Below are positions 6,914 through 17,016 of a DNA stretch of 50,839 nt, piece after piece. The notes under the pieces are model-generated. The model had not been told where the DNA came from. It saw only the letters and a program-made list of their open reading frames with translations, and ran no database searches. The stretch is taken from NCBI GenBank assembly GCA_028873125.1, contig JAGWMQ010000011.1, positions 1 to 50,839 on the forward strand. The letters run 5' to 3'. The stretch is from Verrucomicrobiota bacterium (GTDB lineage: Bacteria > Verrucomicrobiota > Verrucomicrobiia > Limisphaerales > UBA11358). The stretch's first letter is position 1, and the number at the start of each line of letters is the position of its first letter. The translations under genes were made by a program, and so were the position numbers.

Positions 6914-8401
6914 ATGGAGGCCGATCCCAAAACGAAATCCAGTTTCTCCCCGCATCGCCGGTGGCGGATCGGTTGCGACCTCCTGGTGCGGACCGCGGCG
7001 GTGCTGGCGGTGGTGGTCATGGCCAACTACCTGGGCGCGCAGCTTTTTCACCGGTTTTATCTGAGTGCGCAAACCAGCGTCCATTTGTCCCTGCGCACCA
7101 TCAGCGTGCTGCATTCGCTGACGAATCGGGTGACGGTGACGTTGTATTACGACAAGGACGACGACATGTTCCCGACCGTGAAGGAATTGCTGGAGGCCTA
7201 CCGCGACGTCAACCCGCAGATTTCGCTGCGAGTGGTGGATTACACGCGCGATGCCGGCGAGGCCGAAAAGCTCAAGGCCAAATACGGTCTCTTCCAGTCG
7301 CCCGCCTATCCGAACGGTCCGCCCCAGAAGAACCTCATCATCTTTGACTGCGGCGGCCGGTTCAAGGTCGTCCCGGGCGCCGCCCTGGCCCAATACACCC
7401 TCGAATTGGTCAACCCCAAGGACCGCGAGTTTCGGAAGAAGCCGGAGGCGTTTCTGGGCGAGGAATGGTTCACCGCGGCGCTGCTGGCGATCACGAATCC
7501 CAAACCCTTCAAGGCCTATTACGTGCAAGGCGAAGGGGAGCCGGCGCTGGACGACTCAAGCGACACGGGCTATGTGAAATTTGCCTCGGTGCTGCGGGAA
7601 AATTACATTGACGTGGAGCCGCTCCGGTTGACCGGGGCCAGCCCCGTGCCGGCGGATTGCGACCTGCTCATCATCGCCGGCGCCCGAATGGCGTTTTCCC
7701 CCGACCAGCTCCGGCAAATTGACCAATACCTCTCGCAAGGCGGACGGCTCTTGGCCTTGTTCGACTACTGGTCCCTGCAAAGGCCCAGCGGCCTCGGAGA
7801 CCTGCTGGCGCGCTACGGCGTGAACGTGGGCCGGGATGTCGTGCGTGACCCGAACAGTCCCTTGTCCTACTGCGTGATCGTTTCGTCCTTCAGCCAGCAT
7901 CCCGTCGTTAATCCGCTCATGAACCTGGCGCTGCAAATGGTCATGCCGCGACCCATCGGTCGCACGACCTCGGCCAGCGGCCCGGCCGACGCGCCAAAGG
8001 TTCAGGAAATCGCCTTTTCCGGCCCCGATTCGGTGCTGGCCGGCGCACGGGGCGCGCCACCCCGGGCGTACCCGCTGATCGCTGCCGTTGAACAACCGAA
8101 CGCGGTCAAGGGCGTCGCTCCCGCGCGGGATGCCCCGCGCCTGGTCGTGGCCGGCGACGCGTTCTTTCTCGACAACCAGATGATCGCTGCGGGCGCCAAC
8201 CGCGACTTTCTGGGTTACGCCGTCAACTGGCTGCTGGACCGCCCCGCGCTCCTCAAAGGCATCGGTCCGCGCCCGGTGACCGAATACCGGCTGGTGATGA
8301 CCCGGACCCAGCAAAACGACATTCGCTGGCTGCTGCTGGCCGCGCTGCCGGGCGCGGTCCTGCTGCTGGGCGGCCTGGTCTGGCTGGTGCGAAGGAAGTG
8401 A
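6914..8401 (+). CDS. GldG-like ABC transporter auxiliary protein
   Basis: A 495-residue protein anchored at both ends: an N-terminal membrane segment (VRTAAVLAVVVMANYLGAQLF) and a C-terminal one (LLLAALPGAVLLLGGLVWLV) followed by RRK. The large region between them begins LYYDKDDDMFPTVKELLEAY and contains the thioredoxin-like and GATase-like parts seen in the ABC_transp_aux/GldG family (YYVQGEGEPALDD, CDLLIIAGARMAF). It is expected to sit in the periplasmic face of the transporter complex. Its stop codon overlaps the ATG of the next gene in a TGATG arrangement at 8399-8403, indicating translational coupling. Confidence 0.85.
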   Translation: MEADPKTKSSFSPHRRWRIGCDLLVRTAAVLAVVVMANYLGAQLFHRFYLSAQTSVHLSLRTISVLHSLTNRVTVTLYYDKDDDMFPTVKELLEAYRDVNPQISLRVVDYTRDAGEAEKLKAKYGLFQSPAYPNGPPQKNLIIFDCGGRFKVVPGAALAQYTLELVNPKDREFRKKPEAFLGEEWFTAALLAITNPKPFKAYYVQGEGEPALDDSSDTGYVKFASVLRENYIDVEPLRLTGASPVPADCDLLIIAGARMAFSPDQLRQIDQYLSQGGRLLALFDYWSLQRPSGLGDLLARYGVNVGRDVVRDPNSPLSYCVIVSSFSQHPVVNPLMNLALQMVMPRPIGRTTSASGPADAPKVQEIAFSGPDSVLAGARGAPPRAYPLIAAVEQPNAVKGVAPARDAPRLVVAGDAFFLDNQMIAAGANRDFLGYAVNWLLDRPALLKGIGPRPVTEYRLVMTRTQQNDIRWLLLAALPGAVLLLGGLVWLVRRK

Positions 8402-10203
8402 TGAACTCAAAGTCCACCGGAACCTGGCTGTTGCTTGCCGCGGCGATGTTTGTGGGCGTCGTCCTCGTGGACCATTTTCTGCATCGCGCTCCCGCCGCGC
8501 CCAAGCCGCTGCTGTCCGACTTGCGGCCGGCGGAGGTGACGAGCGTCCAGGTCATTCCCGCCGCCGCGCCCGAAATCCAGGCCGATTGCTCCAATGGCGT
8601 GTGGAATCTCGTCAAACCAATCTCCTATCCGGCGCAGTCGGCGGCCGTCGGCGCGCTCCTCGACGCTTTGCAACGTCTAAAGCCCGCCAGCCGCATCAAC
8701 GCCAGTGAACTGAGCCACCACGCCGACGCCAACGCCGAATTCGGTTTTGCCAATCCGTTGTCCCTTGTGTTGCGACAGGGGCAGGACCAGTGGCGGGTGC
8801 TGGTCGGCCGCAAAACTGCTCCCGGCGACCAGGTCTATTTGCGTGTGGTGGGAGTCGAAGGGGTGTTTGTAGCCGACGCCAACTGGCTCAAGTTCATTCC
8901 GCGCACCGCCAACGACTGGCGGGACACGTCGCTGGTGGAGACCGAGGCTCGCGCCTTCGATTGGATCGTGGTGACCAACAACACCCGGACCACCGGCAAT
9001 CAGCCGCGGGTCCTTGAACTTCAACGGAACCCGACAAACCACTTGTGGCGCATGATCCAGCCCCTGCCCGCCCGCGCCAACAACGATCTCATCAACCAGG
9101 CGCTCCAAAACCTGCAAACCGCGCGCGTCACGCAATTTGTCACCGACGATCCCGGCGCGGATTTGAGCGCCTACGGACTGCAGCCGGCCAGCCTGGATTT
9201 GTGGCTGGGCCGCGGCACCAATCTGGTTGCCGGTCTGCGATTGGGCCGCAGCCAGACGAATGATTCCTCGCAGATTTTCGCCAAATGCGAGGACTGGAAG
9301 ACGATCATGACGACCGCCCGCGACCCGTTGTCGCCCTGGTATGGGCCGGTCAACGATTTTCGCGACCCGTATCTGCTCGACCTGACCGCGCCGGTTGCTG
9401 AAATCAGCGTGCGCGGCGCCCGCAATTTCACCTTGCAACGGCACGGCACGAACTGGCAGGCGGCCGGCGAGACCTTCCCCGTGGACAGCGGGCTGGTGCA
9501 GCAATTCATCCAGGCCCTTGCCCGGCTGCGCATCTCCGACTTTGTCAAGGACGTGGTGACCCAGCCGGACCTGGCCGCCTACGGACTCACCAATCCCGTG
9601 CGCGAGATCACCCTCCGCTCGGCGCTGGGCGACACCAACGCAATCATCGCCCGGCTGTTGTTCGGCGCGACACGGACCAACGAGGTGTTCGTCCGCCGCG
9701 CCGACGAGGATTACGTCTATGCCATCGCCTCGAACGACCTCAGCCGATTGCCCGAGGCCGGCTGGCAATTTCGGGAGCGGCGCATCTGGAATTTTGGCGA
9801 CAACGACGTCAAGGAGATCACCATTCACCAGAACGGCAAGACGCGCCAACTCATCCGCAACAGCCCGAACCAATGGTCGCTGGCGCCCGGCTCCCAAGGC
9901 ATCATCAACCCGCCGGCCCTCGAGGAAACCGCCTACCGCCTCGGCCAGATGGACGCCTACGGCGGCTGGGTCGCGCACGATGTGACCAACGCGGCGCCCT
10001 ATGGCTTCAAGCCGGACAATCTTTCCATCACCGTCGCGCTCAAGGACGGAAAGCGCTGCACGGTGGATTTTGGCGGCCTGCTCCCGCCCGAAACCGTGCT
10101 GGCCTCCGTCGCTCTCGACGGCGAGCGATGGATCTTTATTTTTCCACCGACGCTTTACCAACTGGTCATGAGTTATCTCACCATTCCGGCGAACGTTCCC
10201 TGA
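8401..10203 (+). CDS. DUF4340 domain-containing membrane-anchored protein
   Basis: A 600-residue protein starting at ATG 8401 inside the TGATG overlap (a GTG at 8398 is in frame but less likely). One N-terminal membrane anchor (TGTWLLLAAAMFVGVVLV) is followed by a long periplasmic region made of repeated DUF4340-type units, recognised by repeated pieces such as ADLSAYGLQPASLDLWLG and PDLAAYGLTNPVREITL. DUF4340 proteins regularly accompany GldA/F/G-type ABC transporters; their biochemical role is not known. The gene ends 1 bp before the next start, so it is in the middle of a five-gene operon. Confidence 0.85.
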   Translation: MNSKSTGTWLLLAAAMFVGVVLVDHFLHRAPAAPKPLLSDLRPAEVTSVQVIPAAAPEIQADCSNGVWNLVKPISYPAQSAAVGALLDALQRLKPASRINASELSHHADANAEFGFANPLSLVLRQGQDQWRVLVGRKTAPGDQVYLRVVGVEGVFVADANWLKFIPRTANDWRDTSLVETEARAFDWIVVTNNTRTTGNQPRVLELQRNPTNHLWRMIQPLPARANNDLINQALQNLQTARVTQFVTDDPGADLSAYGLQPASLDLWLGRGTNLVAGLRLGRSQTNDSSQIFAKCEDWKTIMTTARDPLSPWYGPVNDFRDPYLLDLTAPVAEISVRGARNFTLQRHGTNWQAAGETFPVDSGLVQQFIQALARLRISDFVKDVVTQPDLAAYGLTNPVREITLRSALGDTNAIIARLLFGATRTNEVFVRRADEDYVYAIASNDLSRLPEAGWQFRERRIWNFGDNDVKEITIHQNGKTRQLIRNSPNQWSLAPGSQGIINPPALEETAYRLGQMDAYGGWVAHDVTNAAPYGFKPDNLSITVALKDGKRCTVDFGGLLPPETVLASVALDGERWIFIFPPTLYQLVMSYLTIPANVP

Positions 10204-10204
10204 T

Positions 10205-13087
10205 ATGCCTTCGCAACCGGGCTTCTGGCGGAAATGCCGCGTGTGTTTCCGCTGGTTTCGCATCAGCGTCCTGGCTTTGGTGCTGGCCCTGCTAGGCTGT
10301 GCATTCTGGCTCAACCGCATTGGCCTGCCGGATTTTCTGAAAGATGCCCTCGTCCAATCGTTGCGCGCGCGCGGTGTCGAGGTCCAGTTCACCCGCCTGC
10401 GCTGGCGTTTTGTCCGCGGGCTGGTCGCCGAAGACGTCCGCCTCGGCCTCACGGCGGCAACCGGGAGTCCGACTTTTTTCGTTCACGAAGCGCAACTGCG
10501 CCTGGATTATCGCGCCTTGCTGGGCCGGCATCTCCAGGTGGAAGGGCTGATCCTGCGCGACGGCCAATTCACCTGGCCCATCCTCGAAAGCAACGCCCCG
10601 CCGCGTTCCCTGACTCTCGACCACCTCCAGACCGATTTGCGGTTCCAGACCAATGGCACCTGGTCTCTCGACCATTTTCAGGCTGATTTCGCCGGCGCCA
10701 GGCTCACGCTTTCCGGCGAGGTTGCTCACGCCTCGCTTATCCGCCGCTGGCCCATTTTTCACCCCAGCCACGGCGCCGCGGGCGCGGTCTGGCAGGCCCG
10801 ACTGCGCCAATTCTCCGACGCCCTCGACCAGATTCACTTCCAGAGCGCGCCGGATCTGAACTTCTCGATCCACGGTGACGCGCGCGATTTGAATTCCTTT
10901 CGACTCCGGCTCACCCTCAACGCGTCCGGCGCGGACACGCCGTGGGGCCGGGTGCAGCAAGGCCGGTTGTTGGTGCGGGTTGCCCCGGCGCCAACCGCGG
11001 GAACGCAGGCCACAGCGCTGCTGGCCACAGACGATGCCGACACCCCGTGGTGCCGCGTGCGCCGCGGCCGGCTGATCGTGCGAATCAGTTCCGTTCCCGC
11101 CCATCCGCCGCACGCCACGCTGCGCCTGGAGGCCGACGACGCCAGAAGCAGGTGGGCTGGCGCGCGCCACCTCGAGTTGGAGGCCGGCATTGTCCGGGGA
11201 ACTTCCAACGGGCCGTCGGCCGGCACCGCTTGGGGCGCTTGGGCCAAAATCCAGCCGTATCGGTTCGACTGGACCGCGCAATGCACCCAACTGCGGTCGG
11301 AAAAGGTCAATGCCGACACGGTGGCCTGTGACGGCAACTGGTCGGCGCCGGAACTGAGGCTGACCCGTTTGTCCGCCGATTTGGGTGGCGGCAGGCTCGA
11401 CGCCCGGGGACGTTTGAACGTCGTCACCCGGCGGTTCAACTTCACCAATTCCTCCTCCTTTGATCTCAACGCGATTGCCGGACTGCTCACCGAAAAAACC
11501 CGTCTCTGGCTCGCGCGATTTTCCTGGGCGCAACCGCCGCGGCTGCGGGCCGGCGGCTCGTTGACGCTGCCCGCCTGGACCAACTGCGCTCCGGACTGGC
11601 GCGGGCAGGTGCAGCCCACCGAGCGGCTGGCCGGCTCCTTTGAACTGGGGCGAGGCTCGTTCGACCGCGTCCCGTTCGACTCCGCACGGAGCAGTTTTTC
11701 ATATTCCAACCTTGTCTGGCAACTGCCGGACCTGGCTGTCGCGCAACCAGAAGGCCTGATCCAACTGGCGGGCACCGAGGACGACCGGACGAAGTTTTAT
11801 CACTGGCACGTGCGCGGGGCGCTGGATCCGGCGGTCCTCCGTCCGCAGTTCGAGACCCGCAAAGCCCGGCATGCCCTGAACCTCTTCACTTCCACGCAGC
11901 CGGCGCGGGTTGACGCAGACGTTTGGGGACGGCTGTATGATTACGACAGCATCGGCGCGCGCGGGCGCATTGCCTTGACGAATTTCACCTTTCGTGGCGA
12001 AGCGGCGGACTATTTCGAGTCCGCCGCCGCTTACACCAACCGGGTGTTGCAATGCTTTCAGCCCGACCTCCGGCGCGGCGGCGAGCGTCTGACGGCGGAT
12101 GGCATCACGGTGGACTTCAACGCCCAACGCATTTATTTCACCAACGGCTTCAGCACCGCCGAACCCCAGGCCGTGGCGCGCGCCATCGGGCCGAAAGTCG
12201 GCAGCGCCCTGGCGCCGTATCATTTCTTGCAGCCGCCGACGGTGCGGGTGAGCGGCTACGCGCCTCTGCGCGGCGACGAAGACGCCGATTTGCGTTTTGA
12301 CGTGGACGGCGGACCGTTGAACTGGCTCAAGCTCAAGGCCGCGCACGTCAGCGGCGAGGCGCGCTGGCTGGGGCACACGCTGATCCTGACGAACCTGACG
12401 GCATCGCTTTACGGCGGAAACGGCGGCGGTTCGGCCCTGTTTCATTTTCATCCCCCGCGCGACGGGGCGGAGTTTCAATTCAGCGCCGGCGTCACCAATG
12501 TGGACGTGCACCGGCTCGCGTCGGAACTGGCTTCGCCCAGCAATCACCTGGAAGGCGTGTTGGCTGGAAGACTGGTCGTGACCCGCGGCGACACTCAGGA
12601 TTGGCGGACTTGGAACGGGCGCGGCTCCGCGGACTTGCGGAACGGATTGCTCTGGGACATTCCCATCTTCGGCATTTTGTCGGTGCCGCTGAATACCATC
12701 GTCCCGGGCCTGGGCAGCAGCCGGGCGACGGACGCCTCGGCCCAGTTTGTCCTGACCAACGGCGTGATCTTCTCGGACAAGCTCGAAGTCCGTTCCACGC
12801 TCATGCGGCTCGATTACGCCGGCAGCGTGGATTTGACGGGCGAGGTCAACGCCCGCGCCACCGCGCGACTGCTGCGCAACACCTGGGTGATCGGCCCGCT
12901 CATCAGCACGGCGCTGTGGCCCGTAAGCAAATTGTTTGAATACCGGATCACCGGCACACTCGAGGCCCCTCACAGCGAGCCGCTGGTTCCCTACCTCCCG
13001 CAAATCCTGCTCTGGCCGCTGCACCCGATCCGCAGCATCGAGGAATTGTTTCCCTCCAACACCGCGACCAACGCGCCGGGCCGCTGA
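10205..13087 (+). CDS. AsmA-like (YhdP/TamB-type) membrane-anchored protein
   Basis: A 960-residue protein with one N-terminal membrane segment at about 19-36 and a very long periplasmic body with alternating beta-strand pattern. The C-terminal part (SADLRNGLLWDIPIFGILSV through RLDYAGSVDLTGEVNARATA and RITGTLEAPHSEP) is the AsmA-like C-terminal region found in YhdP, TamB and related proteins, which form long hydrophobic-groove bridges for lipid traffic between inner and outer membranes. Around residues 240-330 the motif DTPWGRVQQGRLLVRV recurs as DTPWCRVRRGRLIVRI and a weaker third copy. It is translated 1 bp after the DUF4340 gene, which suggests a link between the ABC complex and envelope lipid handling. 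That link is inference. Confidence 0.75.
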   Translation: MPSQPGFWRKCRVCFRWFRISVLALVLALLGCAFWLNRIGLPDFLKDALVQSLRARGVEVQFTRLRWRFVRGLVAEDVRLGLTAATGSPTFFVHEAQLRLDYRALLGRHLQVEGLILRDGQFTWPILESNAPPRSLTLDHLQTDLRFQTNGTWSLDHFQADFAGARLTLSGEVAHASLIRRWPIFHPSHGAAGAVWQARLRQFSDALDQIHFQSAPDLNFSIHGDARDLNSFRLRLTLNASGADTPWGRVQQGRLLVRVAPAPTAGTQATALLATDDADTPWCRVRRGRLIVRISSVPAHPPHATLRLEADDARSRWAGARHLELEAGIVRGTSNGPSAGTAWGAWAKIQPYRFDWTAQCTQLRSEKVNADTVACDGNWSAPELRLTRLSADLGGGRLDARGRLNVVTRRFNFTNSSSFDLNAIAGLLTEKTRLWLARFSWAQPPRLRAGGSLTLPAWTNCAPDWRGQVQPTERLAGSFELGRGSFDRVPFDSARSSFSYSNLVWQLPDLAVAQPEGLIQLAGTEDDRTKFYHWHVRGALDPAVLRPQFETRKARHALNLFTSTQPARVDADVWGRLYDYDSIGARGRIALTNFTFRGEAADYFESAAAYTNRVLQCFQPDLRRGGERLTADGITVDFNAQRIYFTNGFSTAEPQAVARAIGPKVGSALAPYHFLQPPTVRVSGYAPLRGDEDADLRFDVDGGPLNWLKLKAAHVSGEARWLGHTLILTNLTASLYGGNGGGSALFHFHPPRDGAEFQFSAGVTNVDVHRLASELASPSNHLEGVLAGRLVVTRGDTQDWRTWNGRGSADLRNGLLWDIPIFGILSVPLNTIVPGLGSSRATDASAQFVLTNGVIFSDKLEVRSTLMRLDYAGSVDLTGEVNARATARLLRNTWVIGPLISTALWPVSKLFEYRITGTLEAPHSEPLVPYLPQILLWPLHPIRSIEELFPSNTATNAPGR

Positions 13088-16061: not shown

Positions 16062-16092
16062 AAAAAAACCCGCGACGTTTCGGCCGCGGGTT
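16062..16092 (-). terminator. Intrinsic terminator in the ilvB leader (attenuator)
   Basis: On the ilvB strand the stem AACCCGCG (16092-16085) pairs perfectly with CGCGGGTT (16074-16067) around the loop GCCGAAACGT, followed at once by a run of U residues (through 16062). It lies between the leader ORF stop (16114) and the ilvB start (16023), so any transcript that ends here lacks ilvB. Its placement directly after a Leu/Val-rich leader ORF makes it an attenuator rather than an operon-end terminator. Confidence 0.85.
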
Positions 16093-16113
16093 CTTGTTAA
16101 AGTTTGATTGCGT

Positions 16114-16188
16114 TCAACAAGCGCCAACGGCGTCGTCGCCTACAACGACGACCAGCAGGTTAGCGGCTTGTGAAACGTTTTTCAACAT
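16114..16188 (-). CDS. ilvB leader peptide (Leu/Val attenuator peptide)
   Basis: A 24-codon ORF, ATG at 16188 to TGA at 16114. It reads MLKNVSQAAN then LLVVVV then GDDAVGAC, so codons 11-16 are CTG CTG GTC GTC GTT GTA, and two further Val codons are at positions 5 and 21. Runs of the end-product amino acids ahead of an intrinsic terminator are the hallmark of ribosome-mediated attenuation, as in the ilvBN, ilvGMEDA and leu leaders of enterobacteria. Scarce charged Leu- or Val-tRNA would stall the ribosome at codons 11-16. That leaves CTTGTTGAA (16121-16113) free to pair with TTTAACAAG (16101-16093), an extension of which invades the terminator stem. No Ile codon is present. There is almost no 5' untranslated region if the predicted promoter is right. 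Confidence 0.8.
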   Translation of the reverse strand: MLKNVSQAANLLVVVVGDDAVGAC

Positions 16189-16197
16189 GTCCAGTTC

Positions 16198-16225
16198 ACT
16201 TTAGCAAAATCCCCGGCGCGGTCAA
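16198..16225 (-). promoter_or_regulatory. Predicted sigma-70-type promoter of the ilvB leader
   Basis: TTGACC (16225-16220, five of six to consensus) is separated by 16 bp from TAAAGT (16203-16198, four of six), which is preceded by an extended -10 TG (TGC). Transcription would start near 16191, two to four nucleotides before the leader ATG at 16188. Confidence 0.6.
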
Positions 16226-16347: not shown

Positions 16348-17016
16348 CTATTCGGCCTTTTCCTTCCTTTCAGGTTTTGACGCCTTGGCGGCCCTGTGCG
16401 GCTTTTCGGCTTTGGCCGCGCGCGGTTTCTTCTCCGCGGAGGCTTCGACCTTTTCAGGCTTTGCGGTCTCGGCCTCGTGCCTTCCGTGGCCGCGTTTTTC
16501 CGTTCTCGGCCTCTTGCCTTCCTCGACCTTCGCTTCGGGGGCGGGCTCGGCCACGGTCACGGGCGTGGTGCTTTCCACGCGGACCTTGAGCGTCCCTTTG
16601 ACCTCGGCGTGCAGATTCAATTCCACATCGTAATCGCCCAGGGCGCGGATCGGGTGTTCGAGGTGAATTTTCCTCTTGTCGAGGGCGATGTCGAACTGGT
16701 GCTTTAGTTCGTCAGCGATCATGCCGGCCGTCACCGCGCCGAACATCTTGCCATCCTCGCCCGCCTTGACCTTGACGACGCAGATAAGCTTCGAGACGCC
16801 CTTGGCCAGTTCGCTCATGGTGTTGAACTCGTGCGCTTCGCGTTCGGCGCGGCGCCGGCGGAGCACCTCGATCTGCTTCTTGTTGGCCTGGGTGAGCGGA
16901 ATCGCCAGCCGCTGGGGAAAAAGAAAGTTGCGGGCGTAGCCGGCGGCGACCTTGACCTGGTCGGATTCGGCGCCGAGGCCCACGATGTGACCGGTGAGAA
17001 TGACTTCAGTTTTCAT
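16348..17016 (-). CDS. rplI: 50S ribosomal protein L9 with long charged C-terminal tail
   Basis: The start ATG at 17016 gives MKTEVILTGHIVGLGAESDQ (core VGLGAESDQVKVAAGYARNF), the normal L9 N-terminal domain that binds 23S rRNA, followed by the connecting helix (NKKQIEVLRRRRAEREAHE) and the C-terminal domain ending near LHAEVKGTLKVRVE at about 150. Another 70 residues follow, rich in Lys, Glu, Ala and Pro (KVEASAEKKPRAAKAEKPHR), so the protein is 222 residues instead of about 150. It is last in a prs-rplY-pth-rpsF-ssb-rplI run. The rpsR gene usually found between ssb and rplI is not in the 77-bp gap. Confidence 0.92.
   Translation of the reverse strand: MKTEVILTGHIVGLGAESDQVKVAAGYARNFLFPQRLAIPLTQANKKQIEVLRRRRAEREAHEFNTMSELAKGVSKLICVVKVKAGEDGKMFGAVTAGMIADELKHQFDIALDKRKIHLEHPIRALGDYDVELNLHAEVKGTLKVRVESTTPVTVAEPAPEAKVEEGKRPRTEKRGHGRHEAETAKPEKVEASAEKKPRAAKAEKPHRAAKASKPERKEKAE

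Follow-up and report, generated by a model that had tools for sequence, protein, structure and literature searches.

The stretch between rplI and ilvB, the gene for the acetolactate synthase large subunit, raises the question of what decides whether RNA polymerase reaches ilvB in this member of the Verrucomicrobiota. The window, that is the whole stretch of 50,839 nucleotides analysed here, carries on its minus strand a 24-codon ORF with a Leu-Leu-Val-Val-Val-Val run, an intrinsic terminator and ilvB, each at the place where the original prediction, made from the letters of the DNA, had put it (Table 1). The ilvB product scored 680.4 bits against TIGR00118, for which the cut-off is 538.35. The upstream neighbour rplI ends at 16348, and 123 nt lie between this end and the promoter region on the minus strand. 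The leader promoter is sigma-70-like with a 16-nt spacer, and the leader ORF starts nine bases past the -10 box. The two strands of the window hold 573 short ORFs of 12-36 codons, among which only the leader has at least six consecutive Leu/Val/Ile codons, and this same ORF also has the terminator and the promoter. The 138-nt leader folds with a z score of -4.7. The ORF, its codons, the terminator, the mutually exclusive pairings and the conservation of all these are seen in the sequences described below. Taken together, they make it very probable that a classical ribosome-mediated transcription attenuator sensing valine (and leucine) precedes ilvB.

In such an attenuator, the supply of charged valyl-tRNA (and leucyl-tRNA) would set ilvB transcription. 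We infer a transcription start, translation of the leader, stalling and read-through, which may proceed as follows. RNA polymerase would start at or beside the leader ATG, and a ribosome would load on the 5' end of the RNA and follow it. When valine is sufficient, the ribosome would pass codons 11-16, reach the stop codon inside segment 2 and cover this segment, and segments 3 and 4 would then form the terminator. When valine is too scarce, the ribosome would stall on the Leu/Val run and cover segment 1, leaving segment 2 free. The free segment 2 would pair with segment 3 before segment 4 is made, and with this antiterminator formed the polymerase would read on into ilvB.

Table 1. Features of the ilvB leader region and their positions in the window.
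Feature	Position	Strand	Evidence
Promoter -35 hexamer of the leader, TTGACC	16220..16225	(-)	Sequence and positional conservation in relatives
-10 hexamer, TAAAGT	16198..16203	(-)	Sequence and TAnnnT conservation
Leader ORF, 24 codons and TGA, MLKNVSQAANLLVVVVGDDAVGAC	16114..16188	(-)	Open in 79/79 loci
Candidate regulatory codons CTG CTG GTC GTC GTT GTA (Leu-Leu-Val-Val-Val-Val)	16141..16158	(-)	Val kept in relatives
Segment 1, TCACAAGC, partner of segment 2, putative anti-antiterminator/pause hairpin	16166..16173	(-)	Folding
Segment 2, GCCGTTGGCGCTTGTTGAA, overlaps the leader stop codon	16113..16131	(-)	Alignment and covariation
Segment 3, TTTAACAAGAACCCGCGGC, pairs with segment 2; also 5' arm of the terminator	16083..16101	(-)	Covariation
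Intrinsic terminator (segments 3 and 4), hairpin 16095-16064, U tract to 16062	16062..16095	(-)	Folding, conserved pairing
ilvB, acetolactate synthase large subunit, 629 aa	14134..16023	(-)	TIGR00118 equivalog

A search of genomes with IlvB gave 293 protein matches, of which the best 80 (71-87% identical) were used; being the best matches, they are therefore close relatives. They belong to Limisphaerales-type Verrucomicrobiota (Verrucomicrobia subdivision 3, Pedosphaera, Limisphaera and others), with a few labelled as other taxa. The counts cover 79 of the 81 loci, namely the window and the 78 relatives with complete upstream sequence. In the two that were left out (L038 and L055) the contigs end inside the leader, and what survives of each includes the terminator and the end of the ORF that lies in segment 2. 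Joint conservation of the Leu/Val codons and the terminator in relatives had been named as a test of the original prediction, and the leader ORF, the Val codons and the terminator are retained in 79 of 79 loci. Every leader has at least three Val codons, and 77 of the 79 have at least four Leu/Val/Ile codons before segment 2; the means per leader are 5.7 Val, 1.8 Leu and 0.6 Ile. Leu, Val or Ile accounts for 641 of 1337 codons (48%) read in frame before segment 2; for the two remaining frames, with 210 and 39 stops, the shares are 14% and 3%. Segment 2 lies in frame 0 relative to the start codon in all 79. This in-frame excess and the constant frame of segment 2 indicate that a reading frame is kept, not RNA alone. 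In 61 of 79 leaders the last Leu/Val/Ile codon is 6-9 nt before segment 2, and because of this spacing a ribosome on that codon should leave most of segment 2 free. Six leaders (L049, L050, L074, L077, L081 and L082) have a broken Val run, for example PVSVGG, with intact RNA segments. They were counted against the attenuator, and such leaders may regulate more weakly or in a different way.

The alternative pairings were followed in a sequence-only alignment (A1, 79 rows). The terminator is paired in 99.4% of its cells across the 79 loci. In the antiterminator, GCCG-U-GG followed by CTTGTTGAA pairs with TTTAACAAG, CC and CGGC. Two parts of it had been proposed and hold, namely CTTGTTGAA (16121-16113) with TTTAACAAG (16101-16093) and GG (16125-16124) with CC (16090-16089), but the proposal lacked the helix of GCCG (16131-16128) with CGGC (16086-16083). 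That helix is kept in 77-79 of 79 loci and is the part that opens or invades the terminator. Of 1254 antiterminator cells 87.5% are paired, and 43 are compensatory, compared with 20.0 +/- 4.8 in shuffled alignments; none of 500 shuffles reached the covariation of the antiterminator or that count. When the antiterminator was slid by one base either way, 10-24 cells were changed on both sides. The clearest covarying pair, 73:91 in reference numbering, is U-A in 32 loci and C-G in 25. The conserved codons and terminator, together with this covariation of the proposed antiterminator, support the attenuator as it was first read from the sequence. The outer 1:2 helix is paired in 75.8% of cells, with covariation no better than in shuffles. 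When the ORF RNA is folded, segment 2 is sequestered in 78 of 79 loci, and this RNA exceeds its codon-order shuffles in stability, with a mean z of -2.58 and values below -2 in 53 of 79 loci. An alternative long-range pairing that had also been suggested fared less well: its ACGTTTC:GAAACGT half is paired in only 194 of 490 cells and is not a conserved part. Its GCCGC:GCGGC half is paired in 288 of 393 cells, a count without shuffle control.

Folding with and without the ribosome, which the original prediction had also named as a check, gave a divided result. When the RNA was hidden through the last Val codon, as by a stalled ribosome, the antiterminator formed before segment 4 in 70 of 79 loci, and for the window sequence its probability was 1.00 at -20.2 kcal/mol. 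When the RNA was hidden to beyond the stop codon, the terminator formed in 79 of 79. With segment 4 present, however, equilibrium folding favours the terminator even with the ribosome stalled (P34 > 0.5 in 76 of 79). Without translation, RNA reaching as far as segment 3 prefers the 2:3 pairing to the outer 1:2 helix, P23 exceeding 0.5 in 45 of 79 and P12 in 15 of 79. Both of these results were counted against the attenuator. Since the terminator wins at equilibrium even when the ribosome is stalled, antitermination would have to be kinetic. Kinetic switching is accepted for the trp attenuator.

Dominance of the terminator at equilibrium in all states would also suit a scheme in which leader and terminator regulate ilvB without codon-specific stalling, the ORF coupling translation (its rate, growth rate or ppGpp) to the terminator. 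In S. coelicolor, the ilvB leader is similar and changes in its candidate regulatory codons are reported to have had no effect (PMC1262725), which also speaks against the codon-sensing attenuator. This scheme is nevertheless unlikely here, as all 79 leaders keep Val codons, at a fixed spacing upstream of segment 2, whereas the neighbouring codons vary, and the leader of leuA carries Leu instead.

A Leu-rich leader and a terminator precede leuA (TIGR00970) in 29 of 29 loci from the own genome, its genus and its order. The typical leader is MNRNLNLLLTNALLTSAAVGF, and that of the own genome (L154, G000:C2:21059-22702 (-)) is MNRNLNLGLLLNALLLLRGAAVGF. These leaders contain 6.1 Leu on average, so the codon matches the pathway, with the qualification that the scoring used to choose the ORF gave credit for Leu, for N at codon 2, for an A.xG end and for TTGAC and so favours this reading. 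They start with GTG in 22 of 29 loci and have TTGAC upstream in 25 of 29. The leuA antiterminator has 84.5% of its cells paired and 11 compensatory cells versus 4.7 in shuffles (1/500). Two pathway-matched elements, built alike, occur in the same genomes, Val before ilvB and Leu before leuA. In one relative, a 6S RNA (RF00013, 59.9 bits) lies downstream of leuA (L172:3562-3742 (-)).

The attenuator that we favour for ilvB appears to begin very close to its promoter. In 75 of 78 loci the first base of a TTGAC lies 33-42 nt upstream of the leader start; among the other ATGs of these loci, 28 of 5106 have one so placed. TAnnnT is found at -19 to -5 in 63 of 78 loci, compared with 0-6 in five windows slid upstream. 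The gap from the -10 box to the start codon is 5-13 nt, most commonly 9; L039 and L041 have a longer 5' part instead. The start codon was chosen among in-frame starts with a preference for TTGA 26-46 nt upstream, which favours the promoter reading; the same ilvB leader ORF was picked by two selections made without TTGA, and the start of L026 was set by hand for the alignment and promoter counts. If transcription starts about 7 nt past the -10 box, its first base would be at the leader ATG or immediately ahead of it. From the box spacing we predict a transcription start on this ATG or at most a few bases away, and the leader mRNA is probably leaderless, the promoter being so close. An SD-like 4-mer is present in 1 of 79 leaders, which proves nothing because ilvB starts also seldom have one (2 of 53).

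The predicted leaderless start also fits the idea that the region mainly yields the terminated transcript (about 125 nt), which would serve as a leaderless small mRNA and sRNA and act in trans through its peptide or its RNA. The trpL leader of S. meliloti, with rnTrpL and peTrpL, is a reported precedent (PMC7298713). The most conserved residues of the peptide, GDAVGAC at its end, are however encoded by segment 2, whose RNA pairing is kept, so that RNA pairing explains them. A main role in trans is thus very unlikely, and a trans-acting product and attenuation are compatible and not mutually exclusive. A riboswitch that binds a metabolite or tRNA (T-box, ppGpp or other), in place of a peptide-sensing element, is the least credible explanation and highly improbable: ppGpp riboswitches control some ilvB genes elsewhere (PMC10272879), but no Rfam family, including the Thr, Trp, Leu and His leaders, T-box and ppGpp, reaches its gathering score in the window or upstream of ilvB or leuA at 20 related loci, the best matches below threshold are amino-acid leader families (Thr_leader, 24.7 vs 55; Trp; Leu), and conservation tracks a reading frame. 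The one match at those 20 loci is the 6S RNA of L172.

The choice of valine codon in the ilvB leaders is unusual. GTA makes up 41% of 452 leader Val codons and 2% of 3649 in the ilvB genes, whereas GTG, the Val codon that the genome prefers, makes up 4% and 51%, respectively; seven genes of the window have no GTA among 151 Val codons. Every one of the 79 leaders has at least one GTA (mean 2.4). The third base of GTA is mostly unpaired, with a mean pairing probability of 0.21 versus 0.86 for GTC. Folding alone does not demand GTA, because replacing it by GTG makes the fold slightly more stable. GTG may be avoided for an RNA reason, namely pairing with CCCAC of segment 3. GUA is also named as the control codon for C. 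glutamicum (PMC11857589) and M. tuberculosis (PMC13236596). In the own genome, whose assembly is 94% complete, 29 tRNA matches include the Val anticodons CAC and GAC and none with UAC. The leuA leaders are without a rare-codon shift, 71% of their codons for Leu being CTG, the common codon. It is conceivable, though we hold it only tentatively, that the ilvB leader is a sensor of the charging of one rare valine tRNA isoacceptor, read by ribosomes loaded at the 5' end, and that it combines this with a leaderless start and an order-wide regulon (Val for ilvB, Leu for leuA).

It is established that Proteobacteria and Actinobacteria use amino-acid leader attenuators. In the ilvBN attenuator of E. 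coli (ilvL-type), the leader is translated from a ribosome-binding site. That attenuator shares with the present element a Val/Leu-rich leader with almost no Ile, a terminator, an alternative 2:3 pairing and the target gene, but its leader sequence is unrelated, and here ilvB stands alone with ilvN and ilvC together elsewhere. The ilvBNC/ilvB-II element of Corynebacterium (PMC10272879, PMC11857589) likewise has a uORF with Leu and GUA Val control codons, a terminator and an antiterminator, and its anti-antiterminator has a putative counterpart here in the 1:2 helix; its uORF has 15-17 codons as against 21-28 here, its sequence differs, and it precedes an ilvBNC operon. For ilvB1 of M. tuberculosis, PMC13236596 describes LVVI regulatory codons including GUA and a terminated RNA of about 120 nt, resembling those predicted here, in another phylum and with another sequence. 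An attenuator ORF that begins at or beside the RNA 5' end is described for S. meliloti trpL (PMC7298713), which senses Trp, whereas the leaderless start is a prediction in our case. The polycysteine leaderless ORFs of mycobacteria are reportedly placed in the same way and sense Cys.

The original prediction knew of no amino-acid attenuator demonstrated in this phylum, and no report was found in the literature searched; this negative is weak, as subscription journals were missing. It is further qualified by PMC10272879, in which BCAA uORFs are proposed for ilvB-II, for a Leptospira motif and for ilvB-OMG, the last said to have members in 'various bacterial phyla'. The ilvB-OMG and Leptospira motifs resemble the present element in having a BCAA-rich uORF before ilvB outside Proteobacteria and Actinobacteria, but the present element matches no Rfam family at gathering score. 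Although the mechanism is known elsewhere, its extension to this phylum, the probable leaderless start and the rare-codon bias are the more interesting points. A textbook RNA switch is extended, on comparative evidence, to an order of Verrucomicrobiota for which no report was found. Attenuation at this locus would require sufficiently close coupling of transcription and translation in these bacteria. The loci also provide a large natural alignment for studying three alternative strands, codon choice and a probable leaderless start.

A leader with a terminator was looked for at other genes of relatives and was seen at none of the loci taken for trpE (0/15; 12 best and 3 of a second type), hisG (0/12), ilvN (0/9; 9 of 10 loci), ilvC (0/4; 4 of 9), ilvD (0/9; 9 of 10) and hom (0/8; 8 of 10). 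Two ORF matches upstream of ilvD were rejected, one being an ilvB tail and the other resembling a gene end. The ilvN gene of the own genome is also without such a leader. This gene for the AHAS small subunit (G000:C102, 12467-12937) sits with ilvC (10224-11168) on a different contig from ilvB. For ilvB itself, other families of the same class gave 0 of 29 loci. In other classes, 5 of 40 loci were judged by eye to have a BCAA leader and a terminator (G197, G218, G114, G142 and G250), and the remaining short-ORF matches among those 40 looked like ends of upstream genes. The BCAA-rich short ORFs with terminators noted before ilvB in other classes, at L097, L104, L107, L189, L190, L192, L195 and L212, differ from the leader described here; L097, L104 and L107 were found with the model R1 described below and were likewise judged by eye. 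Several other-class leaders again have TTGAC nearby, and these leaders may reflect repeated origin or fast divergence.

R1, a model built on the ilvB leaders, had a single strong match in the own genome, namely the window; the four that ranked behind it (E 0.46-4.5) were not taken as copies. Over 387 genomes of the phylum, R1 matched 29 genomes with E <= 0.01. Most of these matches were ordinary gene-end terminators on inspection, and those resembling leaders were the window, G295 (ilvB and leuA) and L097, L104 and L107, which lie upstream of ilvB in other classes. Many leuA leaders scored 24-40 bits with R1, as against up to 36 bits for chance terminators, and a leaderless control locus came out at E 0.002. 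Because the scores overlap with those of chance terminators and the control locus, a common origin of the ilvB and leuA elements is unsupported. Another of the R1 matches, L093, has a plausible hydrophobic ORF. Elsewhere in the window, 8398-10203 (+) encodes a DUF4340 protein, and the large protein encoded next, at 10205-13087 (+), has a weak YhdP/AsmA-like match.
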